DNA from: Jiangella aurantiaca
GTDB taxonomy: Bacteria; Actinomycetota; Actinomycetes; Jiangellales; Jiangellaceae
Assembly (NCBI RefSeq): GCF_004349105.1
Contig: NZ_SMLB01000023.1
Coordinates: 1 to 64,000 of the forward strand
DNA length: 64,000 bases
Direction of reading: 5' to 3'
The position numbers and the translations under genes were made by a program. Numbering within the stretch: the first letter of the stretch is position 1; the number at the start of each line of letters is the position of its first letter. Below, in pieces: positions 56,065 to 62,718 of this stretch. Below the pieces are notes generated by a model. The model worked only from the letters and a program-made list of their open reading frames with translations, did no database searches and was not told where the DNA came from.

Positions 56065-58176
56065 TCAGATGCGGTCGAGGACGATGAGCTCACTGGCGTA
56101 GTCGCCGATCAGGGGGACCCGAAGGCCGTGGTGCATGAGCAGTGCCCCGCTGTGCCGCGTCCCCGACGCGGCGTCGGCGTACACCGCCGCGGGGTCGAGG
56201 CCGCGCAGCCGCAGCAGCACCGTCCGGCGCAGCTGCCGCACCGACGGCGCGAACGCGAACACGGCGACCTGGTCGCCGGACGGCGCCACGTAGGCGACCG
56301 CGGTCACGTCGTCCGGTGCCCCGGACAACCGCCGCATCGCGCCGTACTGCACCGTCGCGCGGATCCGCTTGTACTGGGCGACGTACTCGGCTCCGGCGGC
56401 CAGGTCCGCGTCGGACCACGCCGCCAGGTTCCCGCCGATCCCCAGCAACCCGGTCATCGCCGAGTGGAACCGGAACCGCAGCGGGATCTCCCGCTTGGTG
56501 AGGTACGTCGGGGAGTCGGTGACCCAGGCCATCATCGTGTGCGGCGAGTGGGCGTACGCGTAGCCGTGCTGGATCGCCAGCCGCTCCAGCGCGTCGGTGT
56601 TGTCGCTGGGCCAGACCCACTCGGCGCGCGACAGGACGCCGAGGTCGGCCCGGCCGCCGCCGGACGCGCAGCTCTCGATCCAGACGTCCGGATGCAGCTC
56701 TCGCACCCGGTCGAGTACCTCGTAGAGCCCCTCGACGTGCCCGACCCAGACCGAGCCGGCGTCCTCGAGCCCGGACGACGCCTCGGTGAGCGGCCGGTTG
56801 AGGTCCCACTTCAGTGCGTCGATCGGCGCCGACGACAGCAGCGCGTCCAGCGCCTCGACGACGTGCGCGCGGACGTCCGGCCGGCTCAGCGCCAGCAGGT
56901 GGGTCTGCCGGGCCAGCGTGCGCGGGCGGGTGGGCCACTGGTAGATCCAGTCCGGATGGGCGCGGAACAGGTCGCTGTCCGGGCTGACTGCTTCCGGCTC
57001 GACCCACACGCCGAACCGCATGCCCAGCGCGTGCACCTCGTCGGCCAGTGGCTTCAGGCCGTCCGGGAAGGCGGTCCGGTCCGGCGTCCAGTCGCCGACG
57101 CCGGTGCTCTCGTCGTCGCGCCCGGCGAACCAGCCGTCGTCGACGACGAACAGCTCCGCACCCAGCGCGGCGGCCCGCCGGGCCAGCTCGAGCTGCGAGT
57201 CCGGGCGGACGTCGAAGAAGGTCGCCTCCCAGCTGTTGTAGAGCACCGGCCGGACGGTGCCGGACCTCGGCACGACGTGTGCGCGCTCGTACGCGTGCCA
57301 GCGGTCGGTGAGCTCGTCGTGCCCGGCGGCCGCGTACACGCCGACGGTGACGGGGGTGGTCCACGATCTGCCCGGCGGCAGGGGGTGGCGCAGGTCGAAG
57401 TCGTTGACGCCGGCGGTGACGTGCAGCCGGCCGTCGTTGGCCAGTTCGGCGGTCAGCCGCCAGGAGCCGCTCCATGCCAGCGCGACGCTCCACACGGCGC
57501 CGGCCCCGTCGGCGGCGCGCGCGTCGTCGCCCGCGTCGAGCGCGAGCCAGGGCTGCGCGGCGTGCCCGGGAATGCCACGACGCGACTCCAGTACCAGCCG
57601 GCCCGGCCCGAGCGGCCGCCGCGTGACCTGGGTCTCGGCGGCGTACGCACCGGCCAGCCAGGTCGCCACCCAACGCGGCTGCGACGGCAGCCCCCAGCTC
57701 GCGGAGTACGCGCGGTCCAGCACGACCGGCGTCTCGCCGTCGTTCACCAGCGTCGTCCACCGCTCCAGCGCGCCGCCGCGGACCCGGTAATGCAGCTCGG
57801 CCGCGAACGGGTAGTGCCGGTCGGCCAGCCGGATCGTCAACTCGTCGCCGCTCACGGCCGACGACTCGACGGCGAGGTCGAGCGCGCGGACGCCGTCGGC
57901 GAACTCCACCTTGAGCGCGGACTCGTCCAGCCGCCGGCCGCCGTGCGCAACCAGCTCCTCGGTATGGGCTCGCGGGCTGGACCACGTGTTCGAGCCGAAC
58001 TCGCGGGCGTCGTCGGTCAGCAGCACGCCGACGTCAGCAGGCTCGATCGGGCCACCCCAGTGCAGGTGCCGCAGGTCGCCGTCGGGGGTGACGGCGAGCG
58101 TGTAGGCGAACCCGTCGCCCCGCAGCAGGAAGGAGTTCAGGTCGCGCAAGTGCAGGATCGACGGAGGATCGGCCAC
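56065..58176 (-). CDS. GH36 alpha-galactosidase
   Basis: A 703-residue alpha-galactosidase (MelA type). The N-terminal beta-supersandwich runs to about residue 315, and the TIM barrel starts at VLYNSWEATFFDV. The nucleophile is D458 (LKWDLNRPLTE), the acid/base D525 (SDNTDALERL), and CASGGGRADLGVLSRAEWVWPSDN is the family block. It releases alpha-galactose from raffinose-type sugars or galactans. I chose the GTG at 58176: a -10-like TAGGGT (minus strand) ends six bases upstream, suggesting a leaderless message. The GTG at 58182 is the alternative. It leads the minus-strand run. Confidence 0.92.
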   Translation of the reverse strand: MADPPSILHLRDLNSFLLRGDGFAYTLAVTPDGDLRHLHWGGPIEPADVGVLLTDDAREFGSNTWSSPRAHTEELVAHGGRRLDESALKVEFADGVRALDLAVESSAVSGDELTIRLADRHYPFAAELHYRVRGGALERWTTLVNDGETPVVLDRAYSASWGLPSQPRWVATWLAGAYAAETQVTRRPLGPGRLVLESRRGIPGHAAQPWLALDAGDDARAADGAGAVWSVALAWSGSWRLTAELANDGRLHVTAGVNDFDLRHPLPPGRSWTTPVTVGVYAAAGHDELTDRWHAYERAHVVPRSGTVRPVLYNSWEATFFDVRPDSQLELARRAAALGAELFVVDDGWFAGRDDESTGVGDWTPDRTAFPDGLKPLADEVHALGMRFGVWVEPEAVSPDSDLFRAHPDWIYQWPTRPRTLARQTHLLALSRPDVRAHVVEALDALLSSAPIDALKWDLNRPLTEASSGLEDAGSVWVGHVEGLYEVLDRVRELHPDVWIESCASGGGRADLGVLSRAEWVWPSDNTDALERLAIQHGYAYAHSPHTMMAWVTDSPTYLTKREIPLRFRFHSAMTGLLGIGGNLAAWSDADLAAGAEYVAQYKRIRATVQYGAMRRLSGAPDDVTAVAYVAPSGDQVAVFAFAPSVRQLRRTVLLRLRGLDPAAVYADAASGTRHSGALLMHHGLRVPLIGDYASELIVLDRI

Positions 58177-58182
58177 GCGCAC

Positions 58183-58213
58183 ACCCTAGACGTGGGACGA
58201 CGTTCCATGTCAA
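58183..58213 (-). promoter_or_regulatory. GH36 promoter overlapping a LacI-like operator
   Basis: Minus strand: TTGACA (58213-58208), then the dyad TGGAACG-T-CGTCCCA (58207-58193, one mismatched pair) and TAGGGT (58188-58183). Thirteen bases (TTGACATGGAACG) are identical to the site at 60626-60638. Confidence 0.6.
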
Positions 58214-58252
58214 GGTTCTCCCTCGTCCGGCACCGACGGGAGGACGGCACCT

Positions 58253-60484
58253 GTGCAGAACCCACGGCTGGTCCGCGACGGCGACACCGTGCGGGTCGTC
58301 GCGGGGTCCTACATCTGGACCTGGACCTCGTCCGACGACGTGGTCGTCCTGGCCGATCCGCACGGCCGGACGATCGTCGCCGGGCCGATGCAGCCGGCCG
58401 TCATGACCCGCGCCGGCCAGGGCGAGGCGCAGTCGGCATGGGCACTCGGTCGCGTCGTCGGTGTCGTCGTCGCGGACCACCTGGTCACCGTGCGCTACGC
58501 GAGCGTGAACGGGACCGACGAGCTGGAGCTGCGCTGGCGGTTCGAGCCGGAGCGATGCTGGCTCGAACCGGTCGGCTACACGATGGCCGGCGCCGCCGAC
58601 GTCGTCTCGCTGCACTGGTTCGCGCGCCAGTCCGGCACCGGCGGCGGCCGGCCGGCCCCCGGACTCCGATGCCGGTACTTGGTCCACCCCGGCGTGTCCG
58701 GCTCGGCGTTGGTGAGCCCGGTGATCCAGACCCAGGCCAAGCTCGACACGACCACGTGGCTCGGCCGCGGCGGCGGCGGCGAGGTCCGGATGCGCCAGCA
58801 ATGGGCGCTGCCGGCGCACTACGTCGCCGGCCTGGACTCCTCGGCCCACCCCGTCGAGGTGGGTGCGATGACGTCGAAGCTGAGCGACGCGTTCTGCCTG
58901 GGCCTGGCCGACCTGCCGGCCGGCGACCTCCTGCTCCGGTTGCACGACGAGCGGTTCTCGCCGGTGCTCCAGCTGCGTGGCGACCTGTGGGGCCACCTGC
59001 GCGGTCCGGGACGCTTCGAGCTGGGCGCGCCCATGGTGTGGACGTTCGGGCCCGACTACCCCGAGGCGATCCGCGCCTACCAGCGGGCGCTGGTCGAGAG
59101 CGGGATCGTCACGGTGCCCACGCCGTCACCGGCGAAGCTGGCGGCGGCGACGGCGTCGCAGTTCAACACATGGGGCGCCCAGCTCGCCGCGGGCACAGCG
59201 GCGCAGCGGTTCGGCCAGGCGAGCCTGGATGCGATCCACGCCCAGCTCCTCGACTCCGGGCTCGAGGTCGGCATGGTCGTCGTCGACGACAAGTGGGAGG
59301 GCGAGTACGGCAAGCTCGAACACGCGGGCGACCGCTTCCCCGAGTTCGAGCGGACGCTGGCGAGCATCCGCAGCCACGGCCACCGCGTCGGCCTGTGGGC
59401 GGCGTTCCTGCGGTGTGACGACCCCGCGACGCACGGGCTGTCGAGGGCGGACCTGCTCCGCGGACTCGACGGCGAGCCGATCGTGCTCGGCCCAGCCGAG
59501 GCGCCGTACTTCCTGTTCGACGTCACCCTCGCCGGCGTGCGAGCCGTGCTGCGCGAGCGGATCGCCGCGTTCGTCGCGAGGTACCGGCCCGCGCTGGTGA
59601 AGTTCGACTTCGGCTACGAGATCCCGGACCTGTCGCTGTGCGCACCGGCCGATCTCGACTACGCGGGCGAGCGGCTGCTCGGCCTCGCGCTCGAGGTCGT
59701 CGTCGGTGCCCTGCGGGCGGCCGATCCCGACATCGTGGTCATGTACTACGCGCTCTCCCCGTTGTTCGCTCCGTATGTCGACCTCCACAGCGTTGACGAC
59801 CTCTGGATGAACGCGTCGGAGTACCACGCCGAGGTCAACCGGCGGCTGTTCTTCGGCCGGCTGCTCGGAGAGCTCGGCGTCGCCAGCTACGGCTCCGGCG
59901 GATACGACTGGGTGAACCAGGCCGACATCTGGTTCGACTCGGTCGCCTGCGGTCCGCTCGGCATGCTGGGCAGCTTCACGGGCGACCTCTCCGACAGCAC
60001 GTGCCCGCCCGAGCTGGTGGCGCTGCACAACGGACTGACCCGGCTGTCGCGCCGGCGGACCCGTTTCCGGGTCGACGCCATCGGCGCGTCCCGGCTCGGG
60101 CCGGTCACCGGCGCCCGATCGTCGTCGTGGGTGCGGGTCGAGAACGGTGAACCGGTGCTGGTCGTGCTGCGGCCGGGCGGGTTCCTGGGGGCGCCGGGCG
60201 TGCGCCAGTTCGGCGGCCTGCTCAGCACGGACGTGAACGTGGCGGTGGGCTCCCTCGACGCCGGCGGACTGGCGGCGGCACGACGTATCGGCGTGGTGCC
60301 GCGCGGCGACGGCGAGCTGGTTCTGAATTTCCTGCCCGACGGAGAGCGGGTCGCCGTCGTCGTGCACACGCTCGGCGGCGATCGGCACGAGTCGTCACGC
60401 GCGGCGCGGGGCGGCCGGTTCGTCCTCCCGCTGTCGACGACCGTCGACGAGGCACCCGTGACCTGGGTGGAGCTGGTCCGCTGA
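58253..60484 (+). CDS. Clan-D glycoside hydrolase-like protein
   Basis: A 743-residue protein with a beta-rich N-terminal part (~250 residues) and a TIM barrel of the GH31/GH36 type: FNTWGAQLAAGTAAQRFG, VVVDDKWEGEYGKLEHAGDRFPEFERTL, nucleophile candidate D452 in ALVKFDFGYEIPD, and HSVDDLWMNASEYHAEVNRR. It is probably cytoplasmic because it has no signal. Sugar specificity is unknown, and it is distant from the GH36 protein next to it. The GTG start at 58253 has GGGAGG upstream. Divergent from GH36, sharing the operator region at 58193-58207. Confidence 0.78.
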   Translation: MQNPRLVRDGDTVRVVAGSYIWTWTSSDDVVVLADPHGRTIVAGPMQPAVMTRAGQGEAQSAWALGRVVGVVVADHLVTVRYASVNGTDELELRWRFEPERCWLEPVGYTMAGAADVVSLHWFARQSGTGGGRPAPGLRCRYLVHPGVSGSALVSPVIQTQAKLDTTTWLGRGGGGEVRMRQQWALPAHYVAGLDSSAHPVEVGAMTSKLSDAFCLGLADLPAGDLLLRLHDERFSPVLQLRGDLWGHLRGPGRFELGAPMVWTFGPDYPEAIRAYQRALVESGIVTVPTPSPAKLAAATASQFNTWGAQLAAGTAAQRFGQASLDAIHAQLLDSGLEVGMVVVDDKWEGEYGKLEHAGDRFPEFERTLASIRSHGHRVGLWAAFLRCDDPATHGLSRADLLRGLDGEPIVLGPAEAPYFLFDVTLAGVRAVLRERIAAFVARYRPALVKFDFGYEIPDLSLCAPADLDYAGERLLGLALEVVVGALRAADPDIVVMYYALSPLFAPYVDLHSVDDLWMNASEYHAEVNRRLFFGRLLGELGVASYGSGGYDWVNQADIWFDSVACGPLGMLGSFTGDLSDSTCPPELVALHNGLTRLSRRRTRFRVDAIGASRLGPVTGARSSSWVRVENGEPVLVVLRPGGFLGAPGVRQFGGLLSTDVNVAVGSLDAGGLAAARRIGVVPRGDGELVLNFLPDGERVAVVVHTLGGDRHESSRAARGGRFVLPLSTTVDEAPVTWVELVR

Positions 60485-60533
60485 AGAACGCGCACACGTC
60501 GCCCTCCAGCACCAACCACCGACAGGCCCTCCC

Positions 60534-60610
60534 CTCGTTGATCTTGGAGTTGTTCGGCCATTGCGGGCGATATGTCCGATAGATGGCCGAACAACTCCAA
60601 GATCAACGAG
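60534..60610. repeat. Perfect 28-bp inverted repeat
   Basis: Arms 60534-60561 and 60583-60610 are exact complements around a 21-base loop; the first arm starts CTCGTTGATCTTGGAG. It lies between two co-directional genes and may end transcription of the first. It shares TTGATC-W-TGGAG with the hairpin at 39032. Confidence 0.75.
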
Positions 60611-60625
60611 CCGAACCATCGGTTC

Positions 60626-60646
60626 TTGACATGGAACGGCGTTCTG
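60626..60646 (+). promoter_or_regulatory. Shared promoter/LacI-like operator before the propeller gene
   Basis: TTGACA (60626-60631) followed by TGGAACG-G-CGTTCTG (60632-60646; GAACG and CGTTC pair perfectly). TTGACATGGAACG is identical to the GH36 promoter block. It lies 48 bases before the start at 60694. Confidence 0.6.
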
Positions 60647-60693
60647 CGCATCGTTCGACGACGCATCCCGCACCGTCGAACCGGGAGTCGCCC

Positions 60694-62718
60694 ATGAATC
60701 GCCATCCCCGTCTCGTCCGCGCCACCGTCCTGGCCGGCGCCGTCACCGCCGCCGTCGGGCTGTCGTCTGTCCTGCTCGTCTCCGCCCAGCCGCTGCCCCA
60801 GCCCGTCGTCGGCAAGCCCGGCCTGCTCCTGCAGAACGGTGCCTTCGACGTGGGGAACCGCAGCGGCCACCCGATCGGCTGGGGCGTGGAGGGCAATGCC
60901 GACGGCGCCAACATCGTCAACCTGCGGGCCTACCGGACCGCCGGACTGGGCTCGCTGGAGATCAACGACGTCGCCGGCTCGGCGGTGTCGGTGCGCAGCG
61001 AGCGCATCGTCGCCACCGCGGGCGACGAGTACACGCTCACCGCGAACGTCAAGGGCCGCAGCGGCACGCCGGCCTGGCTCTATCTGGAGTTCTGGGACTT
61101 CGACCGCAACCGCATCGGCGTCACCAACGTCGAACCGGCCTTCAGCACGGACTGGCAGGAGGTCACCGTCACCGGCGTCGCCCCGCCCAACACCGCGCAC
61201 GTGACGGCGCACGTCTACGGCTCGCAGGCGGCCGCGGGCATCTCGTACTGGGACGAGGCCGTGCTGACGGCCGCGCCGCCGCCGTACGACCCGCAGCTGG
61301 GCTCCGAGCGCGAGCTGTTCCTCGACGACTACCGGATCGAGTCCGCCCACGACGTCGAGCGGGTGGTCCACCCGGGCGACAAGCTCCAGCGCCCGGTGCT
61401 GCGGCCGGACCAGCCGTGGGAGGCAAGCGCCTACACCTACGGCTCGGTCTACGTCATCGACGGCCTCTACCGCATGTGGTACACGTGCTACAACGACCAG
61501 GCGCCGCACTACCACACGTGCTACGCCGAGAGCACCGACGGAATCACCTGGGACAAGCCGGTGGGCCGCTCCACCGTCTCCGGCGTGGGCTACAAGGACA
61601 TCCCGGCGTCGCAGACCAACATCGTGCTGGCCGGCAGCGGGGCACACGTCACCTACAACCCCGACGCCCCCGCGGACCGGAAGTACTTCCTGATGAAGAG
61701 CCAGCCGGCGCCCGGCGTGCCCGGCGGCAACGGCTACTACGGCTGGAAGTCGCCCGACGGCTACAACTGGACGCCGCTGCAGGCGGCGCACCTGCTCAAC
61801 GACGGCGACGTCGTCCAGACCACCTGGGACCCGGATGCGAAGCTGTACATCGCGACGATCAAGAAGCGGATGTTCACCTCGCGCACGCCCGGCATCTACG
61901 AGCGGTCGGCGTTCGTCTCCACCAGCCCGGACCTGGTGAACTGGACGACGCCGCAGCTGGCGGTCATGGGTGACTCCGCCGACGACGGCGCCGCCGAGGC
62001 CATCGGCGGCGTCGAGGGACAGATCTACGGCATGCCCGTGCTGCCCTACGAGAGCACCTACATCGGCGTCCCATGGGTCTTCCTGACCACCGACTTCACC
62101 TCCGGCGAGTACGCCACAGCCGCCGACGGCCCGGTGCTGCCGCAGCTGGCCACGTCGCGTGACCTGCTGCGCTGGGAGCGGCCGGTGCGCGACCCGCTGC
62201 TCGAGCCCAGCCGGGGCGGCGCCTGGGACGACGGCGCCCTCTACACCGCCTCGAACATCCTGGTCGACGACGAGAAGATCTCGATGTACTACGCCGGCTT
62301 CCAGAACGGCCACGGCGGCGCCGACTCCGACGACCCCAACCGCGACCACCACTTCGGCCAGGTCGGCCTGGCGACCTGGCGCCGCGACGGCTTCGCGTCG
62401 ATGACCAACGCCTCGCTGCCCGGCCTCGGCGACCCGGGAGAGATCACCACCAAGCCGGTGGTCTTCGGCGGCGGCCAGCTGAACGTCAACGCCGTCGTGC
62501 ACGAGGGCGGCAGCCTGGTGGTCGAGGTCCTCGACGCCGAGGGGACTCCGATTCCGGGCTTCACCGCCGCCGACGCGGTGGCGATCAAGGGCGACCAGCT
62601 GGCCGCCCAGGTGAAGTGGAAGGGCAACGCCTCGCTGGCCGGCCTGGCCGGACAGCAGGTGAAGTTCCGCTTCCACCTGGTCAACGTCGACCTCTACTCC
62701 TACTGGATGAGCAACTGA
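60694..62718 (+). CDS. Secreted jelly-roll plus beta-propeller glycosidase-like protein
   Basis: A 674-residue protein with a signal peptide (LVRATVLAGAVTAAVGLSSVLLVSA), then a CBM4/9-like jelly roll at about 45-200 (NGAFDVGNRSGHPIGW ... AWLYLEFWDFDRNRIG ... GISYWDEAVL), then a five-bladed-propeller-type domain (LFLDDYRIESAHDVERVVHPGDKLQRPVL, YRMWYTCYND, YAESTDGITWDKP, RTSRTPGIYERSAFVSTSPDLVNW). Such propellers belong to GH32/43/68-like enzymes, and no catalytic triad can be fixed. Probably releases sugars outside the cell for the neighbouring glycosidases. ATG at 60694. Confidence 0.82.
   Translation: MNRHPRLVRATVLAGAVTAAVGLSSVLLVSAQPLPQPVVGKPGLLLQNGAFDVGNRSGHPIGWGVEGNADGANIVNLRAYRTAGLGSLEINDVAGSAVSVRSERIVATAGDEYTLTANVKGRSGTPAWLYLEFWDFDRNRIGVTNVEPAFSTDWQEVTVTGVAPPNTAHVTAHVYGSQAAAGISYWDEAVLTAAPPPYDPQLGSERELFLDDYRIESAHDVERVVHPGDKLQRPVLRPDQPWEASAYTYGSVYVIDGLYRMWYTCYNDQAPHYHTCYAESTDGITWDKPVGRSTVSGVGYKDIPASQTNIVLAGSGAHVTYNPDAPADRKYFLMKSQPAPGVPGGNGYYGWKSPDGYNWTPLQAAHLLNDGDVVQTTWDPDAKLYIATIKKRMFTSRTPGIYERSAFVSTSPDLVNWTTPQLAVMGDSADDGAAEAIGGVEGQIYGMPVLPYESTYIGVPWVFLTTDFTSGEYATAADGPVLPQLATSRDLLRWERPVRDPLLEPSRGGAWDDGALYTASNILVDDEKISMYYAGFQNGHGGADSDDPNRDHHFGQVGLATWRRDGFASMTNASLPGLGDPGEITTKPVVFGGGQLNVNAVVHEGGSLVVEVLDAEGTPIPGFTAADAVAIKGDQLAAQVKWKGNASLAGLAGQQVKFRFHLVNVDLYSYWMSN

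Follow-up and report, generated by a model that had tools for sequence, protein, structure and literature searches.

In a sugar locus of Jiangella aurantiaca, two promoters carry the same sequence in their −35 region, and the question is which regulator uses this shared site. The window, that is, the whole stretch of 64,000 nucleotides of contig C18 that was analyzed, contains TTGACATGGAACG exactly twice, at positions 58213-58201 on the minus strand upstream of a GH36 gene and at 60626-60638 on the plus strand upstream of a gene for an exported propeller-like protein, with no further exact copy. The first-pass annotation had described this string as a −35 box fused to a LacI-like operator. The shared operator within both promoters was confirmed and is a larger phenomenon than first noted, while the interpretation that came with it was right in part: the regulator is most likely a member of the IclR family and not of the LacI family.

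Two promoters with a shared operator

The −35 hexamer TTGACA of the GH36 promoter is located at 58208..58213 on the minus strand; it was read directly, and its identity in the other TTGACATGGAAYG sites follows from the way these were searched for. Operator 1 (ACGTGGGACGACGTTCCATGT, 58190..58210), a 21-bp pseudo-palindrome with a score of 27.0 in a symmetric position weight matrix (PWM), overlaps this hexamer, and the −10 element TAGGGT (58188-58183, minus strand) is positioned 19 bp from TTGACA. At the propeller gene, TTGACA was read directly at 60626..60631 on the plus strand, followed by operator 2 (ACATGGAACGGCGTTCTGCGC, 60629..60649, plus strand), also a 21-bp pseudo-palindrome, with a PWM score of 23.6. 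The −10-like CATCGT at 60649..60654 on the plus strand, with a spacing of 17 bp, is weak and has the position of a TNTNNT signal in the sequence logo of 83 sites described below; ATCGTT at 18 bp is an alternative. PWM scores of 15 or higher arise 0.2 times per 100 kb in simulated sequence. The propeller-like gene under operator 2 (60694..62718, plus strand) has a GGGAG about 9 bp before its ATG, and its match to the GH32 N-terminal domain stayed below the Pfam cut-off (19.6 versus 22.1 bits).

The GH36 gene (56065..58176, minus strand) was identified by the Pfam Melibiase domain and the GH36 N- and C-terminal domains, and its start was assigned by comparison. As noted in the first-pass annotation, a GTG at 58176-58174 follows six bases after TAGGGT; a second GTG at 58182, which is included in the open frame, abuts TAGGGT directly. 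The start at 58176 is 12 bp from the first T of TAGGGT with no Shine-Dalgarno leader, and a distance of about 12 bp between TANNNT and the start is that reported for leaderless genes (PMC3160421). The arrangement TTGACA-N19-TANNNT-N5/6-GTG is kept in seven of the eight Jiangella genomes with a GH36 start that was read, and the eighth gene, in G008, differs by a longer leader with GAGGAG. The GH36 message is probably leaderless, as had been proposed. GH116 messages are perhaps leaderless, too: by eye, several congeners possess TG[TAG]GGT, six bases, and ATG (L028 4727-4766 and congeners).

Operator 1 ends 42 bases before the start of the divergent gene at 58253..60484 on the plus strand, an arrangement also kept in G008. 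No plus-strand promoter could be named with confidence, and the gene is possibly controlled by operator 1. Its product had no Pfam or NCBIfam match and a weak match to structures of GH31 alpha-galactosidases (E = 1.4e-5). A perfect 28-bp inverted repeat is located between this gene and the propeller gene, with arms at 60534-60561 and 60583-60610 of the window (60534-60610 in total) and a loop of 21 nt, and it ends 15 bases before the −35 hexamer of the propeller gene. It may serve as terminator of the 58253 gene. Two loci of contig C16, L073 and L074, share part of the arm, so the repeat may be a dispersed palindromic element.

Both copies of the string run into a dyad of the TGGAACG-N-CGTTCCA type, as had been described, but the dyads are imperfect. 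The dyad next to the GH36 gene (TGGAACG-T-CGTCCCA, 58207-58193) agrees with the degenerate pattern TGGRACG-N-CGTYCCA without mismatch, that of the propeller gene (TGGAACG-G-CGTTCTG, 60632-60646) with two mismatches. The window alone could not settle whether the operator is real because the counts within it were near chance: with up to three mismatches, the dyad pattern was not enriched (15 found versus 18.98 expected), and 12 of 100 shuffles reached two matches of the 13-mer at two or fewer mismatches, both real matches being exact. The whole genome contained 13 matches of the 13-mer with at most one mismatch versus 1 in the reversed control; a looser pattern was less clean (54 versus 25 in the control at up to two mismatches). 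The genome search for TGGRACG-N-CGTYCCA, which the first-pass annotation had suggested, did recover the pattern, but at only one exact place and at nine places versus four in the control when one mismatch was allowed. The 15-bp dyad was dropped as a genome-wide unit, and the 13-mer and later the 21-bp form were used. TTGACATGGAAYG is present in 91 exact copies in 12 of 12 Jiangella genomes (reversed control, 0), with one copy in the 28 other genomes searched, and a scan of 393 genomes of the class with the long pattern gave matches in no genome besides the 12 of Jiangella (control, 0).

With their flanks, 91 sites were distinct, 90 from Jiangella and 1 from a genome of another genus (G016); one further Jiangella site was not distinct. 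Eight sites were omitted by eye to give the logo of 83: six antisense over the start of a conserved trypsin-like gene, one without a downstream frame, and one inside a coding frame. Following the 13-mer, the logo reads N-C-G-T-T/G-C-C/T-G/A-T/C-G-T and then a weak TNTNNT, which begins 23 bases downstream of the first T of TTGACA and leaves a spacing of 17 bp. In 36 nonredundant sites (including index 51, which was omitted from the 35 sites of the symmetric PWM), 6.22 of the 10 positions in the right arm agree with the left, versus 2.70 ± 0.23 in within-site shuffles, with a maximum of 3.47 in 2,000 shuffles and 4.06 in the next best register. The conserved unit is therefore a 21-bp pseudo-palindrome, ACATGGAACG-N-CGTTCCATGT, which overlaps the −35 hexamer, sharing the ACA of TTGACA as its first three bases, and reaches the −10 element. 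The logo overstates the rigidity of the left arm because this arm was fixed by the search; stretches that were picked via the IclR gene instead also carry the TTGACATGGAACG form (L432, L433, L434, and L435). The antisense sites, with TTGACATGGAATG over the start of an exported trypsin-like gene (L027, G000:C23:74700-74688), have flanks conserved in six distinct sequences and were dropped from the motif.

Genes downstream of the operator

In 80 of the 83 sites, a reading frame, judged by its earliest start codon, opens no more than 100 bp from where TTGACA begins. The 91 sites led to 89 downstream frames, which were clustered. Pfam matches named 33 of the 89 as BNR/sialidase-like exported proteins, 10 as GH116, 6 as PIG-L, and 5 as GH36, and the aminotransferase among the targets was also named this way. 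Matches below the cut-off named seven propellers and three ceramidase-like proteins, while nine RidA-like proteins, three D-2-hydroxyacid dehydrogenases, and two proteins of the alcohol dehydrogenase type were named by eye, leaving nine singles and a spurious pair. Other copies of the operator recur before genes of the sugar locus in this genome and in its relatives. The GH116 gene and the IclR gene discussed below occur in an identical set of 11 Jiangella genomes; GH116 is in none of the 11 other genomes searched, and an exact site precedes 10 of the 11 orthologs, G006 being the exception.

Further sites on contig C18 form a divergent pair at 72027 (minus strand) and 72056 (plus strand). The exported BNR proteins of this region are encoded at G000:C18:71966-74353, 68535-70802, and 70792-72225; two of the three contain F5/8-type C domains, and the one C18 BNR protein searched against solved structures gave no match. 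At 76800 and 76892, two weaker sites, scoring 19.6 and 20.3, lie between an aminotransferase gene and a Gfo/Idh gene, and these sites were found in nine Jiangella genomes. The site at 76892 is upstream of same-strand genes leading to the IclR gene; as it overlaps a start codon, part of its conservation may come from the protein sequence.

An IclR-family protein as candidate regulator

The first-pass annotation had suggested looking for a LacI gene beyond the right edge of the window. A regulator gene is indeed there, 23 kb to the right, but it belongs to the IclR family: the protein encoded at C18:87177-88040 on the plus strand contains an N-terminal HTH_IclR domain (PF09339, 2.4e-14) and a C-terminal IclR_C domain (PF01614, 1.8e-34), both above the cut-off. 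The genome encodes 57 IclR helix-turn-helix (HTH) domains, one of them on C18. With 57 such genes in a genome, an IclR gene within about 30 kb is nothing unusual and proximity by itself says little; it is the co-occurrence of gene and sites that carries the argument for IclR. Of the 11 other Jiangella genomes, 10 carry an ortholog with 89 to 97% identity. In 8 of the 11 carriers, J. aurantiaca included, the gene is on the same contig as the site cluster at a distance of about 15 to 32 kb, and in the other three (G005, G006, and G011) it is on another contig of a fragmented assembly. No strong operator is located directly before this IclR gene in Jiangella, and the sites at 76800 and 76892 are the only ones in the stretch L024 to reach the cut-off.

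The twelfth Jiangella genome (G003) has one exact 13-mer and an IclR homologue with 46% identity, and three operator-like sites with scores of 25.5 to 28.7 are within 10 kb of this homologue. No match to the C18 IclR protein at E ≤ 1e-50 was found in 10 genomes of the family outside Jiangella, and the search widened to the order returned the same 22 genomes. G016 has an exact TTGACATGGAATG before an aminotransferase homologue, with a poor right arm, and despite this site no IclR match at E ≤ 1e-50.

The layout of the dyad also points to this family. Operators of IclR group 2 are given as TGRAACA-N1-2-TGTTYCA in PMC8222616, and TGGAACG-N-CGTTCCA fits this sequence save for the pair adjacent to the center, which is G/C instead of A/T. 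KdgR of gamma-proteobacteria, an IclR-family protein that controls pectin use from the box RWWGAAACGNCGTTTCAKKA, also has the G/C pair beside the center (PMC8222616), and it shares the odd-centered dyad with the core ACG-N-CGT, the family, and the use of a sugar polymer. It differs by GAAAC instead of GGAAC and by its other target genes. The box of Escherichia coli IclR, TGGAAATNATTTCCA (PMC8222616), shares the TGGAA-N5-TTCCA spacing and the family; its inner bases are different, and E. coli IclR controls the glyoxylate bypass. The candidate protein belongs to none of these characterized groups in NCBIfam: it scored 105.7 bits with the KdgR model, far under the cut-off of 275, and 111.7 bits with the IclR model, with a cut-off of 380. 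Its best match was BhcR, another member of the IclR family, with 172.4 bits over residues 20 to 264, which is half of the model cut-off of 350, so that the protein is not a BhcR.

A bound IclR dimer on the 21-bp operator would cover the core promoter between −35 and −10, and its action at both promoters would therefore most likely be repression. The inducer might then be a small molecule produced by the pathway. The predicted regulon would comprise the exported BNR/sialidase-like and propeller proteins, GH36, GH116, PIG-L, the ceramidase-like protein, the aminotransferase, and Gfo/Idh. It is unlikely that the IclR protein acts as an activator at both promoters instead. Some members of the family, such as PobR and PcaU, do activate, but the operator fills the space between −35 and −10, and a dimer in this place would be in the way of RNA polymerase.

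Other proteins might recognize the same sequence. Sugar genes are often under LacI repressors bound at such a position, and the genome encodes 61 LacI HTH domains, none of them on contig C18. A hidden Markov model (HMM) built from the LacI proteins of this genome, which recovered 30 of 30 loci in the positive control (16 of 16 among the non-seeds), found no LacI in the 49 site- or IclR-bearing stretches scanned. No LacI gene was linked to the sites in these searches, and the layout of the dyad is shared with IclR group 2 and KdgR boxes, so the designation of the operator as LacI-like is not supported; binding by a LacI-family repressor, an unlinked one included, is very improbable. A TetR-family regulator similar to SCO7222 of Streptomyces coelicolor is scarcely more plausible. 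The footprints of SCO7222 cover three TGGAACG-N-CGTTCCA repeats (PMC3511530) and thereby the same inner 15 bp of the operator described here, which means that the dyad alone is not diagnostic. The SCO7222 repeats are perfect and located in one intergenic region (PMC3511530), while the unit conserved here is longer than 15 bp and is tracked by the IclR clade; the 20 frames around the IclR genes and sites of Pseudolysinimonas and G003 contained no TetR domain.

The XRE-cupin regulator encoded divergently to the RidA-like gene has a close homologue adjoining the RidA-like site in most genomes with this site. As master regulator it is nevertheless hardly credible, since G002 has seven sites and a best match of only 49%, although in a fragmented assembly, and G015 has a homologue with 69% identity and no site. 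The GGAAC of the motif resembles the −35 boxes of ECF sigma factors, and it could mark such a promoter without any operator. The logo speaks against this and leaves it next to no probability, since TNTNNT stands as a −10-like signal at a 17-bp spacing to TTGACA and the two arms of the motif mirror each other. We put the probability that both promoters carry the operator of an IclR-family factor, with the protein encoded at C18:87177-88040 as the best candidate, at about 0.85, as judged from sequence comparison.

Operator and IclR clade in other Actinobacteria

Because the long pattern was found within the class only in Jiangella, the wider spread rests on a scan of contigs with TTGACATGGAAYGNNNTKCYR, from which 80 loci of at least 115 stretches were listed. 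Among these 80 matches, 9 were from Jiangella, 21 from other Actinobacteria, and 50 from other organisms. The 50 non-actinobacterial matches listed were taken as chance: tblastn with those locus proteins that served as queries gave no hit at E ≤ 1e-8 in any of them. Of the 21 actinobacterial loci listed, 16 have a homologue of a locus protein, or IclR itself, adjoining the site. In the listed locus L307, the adjoining homologue is the divergent neighbor and the downstream gene is off the stretch; in L296 of the same list, the homologue is about 700 bp from the site, and L268 has its site at the stretch edge. Three of the listed loci (L303, L313, and L314) have no locus homologue by the site and low dyad scores of 14.2 to 16.7, and they were recorded as misses before their genomes were searched for IclR.

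This search covered the 17 other actinobacterial genomes behind the matches listed. All 14 of these with a good dyad encode an IclR homologue with 41 to 67% identity (56 to 67% in 12 genomes, 41 to 42% in Leucobacter and Pseudolysinimonas), and the best matches in the 3 with a poor dyad reached 32 to 35%, the level of other IclR paralogues. The recognition helix PKSTL[VL]RLL[ASG]V is kept in 14 of 14 homologues from the matches listed and in the 21 Jiangella proteins aligned versus 0 of 16 background IclR proteins read. The 246 kb around the 14 IclR genes contain 28 operators with a score of 15 or higher, compared to about 0.5 expected from simulated sequence of the composition of the window. 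An operator with a score of at least 20 is near 12 of these 14 genes and near none of the three controls; without the four stretches that overlap motif-found loci, this was the case for 8 of 10 genes. No operator was found in the IclR neighborhoods L439 and L440. In Leucobacter, 13 nt separate the end of the operator from the downstream ATG of the IclR gene; a sialidase-like gene is on one side, and on the other is a homologue of the amidohydrolase whose gene follows that of IclR in Jiangella, too. Comparison of the genomes thereby establishes the operator, its targets, and its co-occurrence with an IclR clade, and from these we infer binding, the sign of regulation, and the inducer.

Six Jiangella genomes (loci L237, L239, L251, L253, L255, and L256) encode a second IclR protein, IclR-B, with 43 to 46% identity to the first and the same recognition helix. 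About 200 bp upstream of its gene is a conserved site, TTGACATGGCAYS-N-GATTCCATAT. Right of the center, this site has a G in six of six cases, compared to a C in 66% of the 83 sites of the first type; left of the center, it has a C in four and a G in two of the six.

Together, these data suggest, with somewhat better than even odds, a catabolic regulon in at least 11 actinobacterial genera that would be run by one IclR clade with the helix PKSTL[VL]RLL and would serve the breakdown of a glycan attacked by exported sialidase-like propellers, GH36, and GH116. The −35 hexamer and the operator half-site would be selected as one 13-bp string, and the Jiangella paralogues would use sites that differ beside the dyad center. 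Literature searches returned no account of an IclR-controlled sialidase regulon, nor of IclR in Jiangella, and by these searches alone the regulon is undescribed.

The assignment to LacI, which would send an experimenter after the wrong gene, is corrected by these results. The two site types and the paralogous IclR proteins form a natural pair for reading IclR recognition. The outcome is a testable pair of regulator and operator together with a list of co-regulated genes, and such lists often lead fastest to a function for unassigned glycosidases and BNR propellers.
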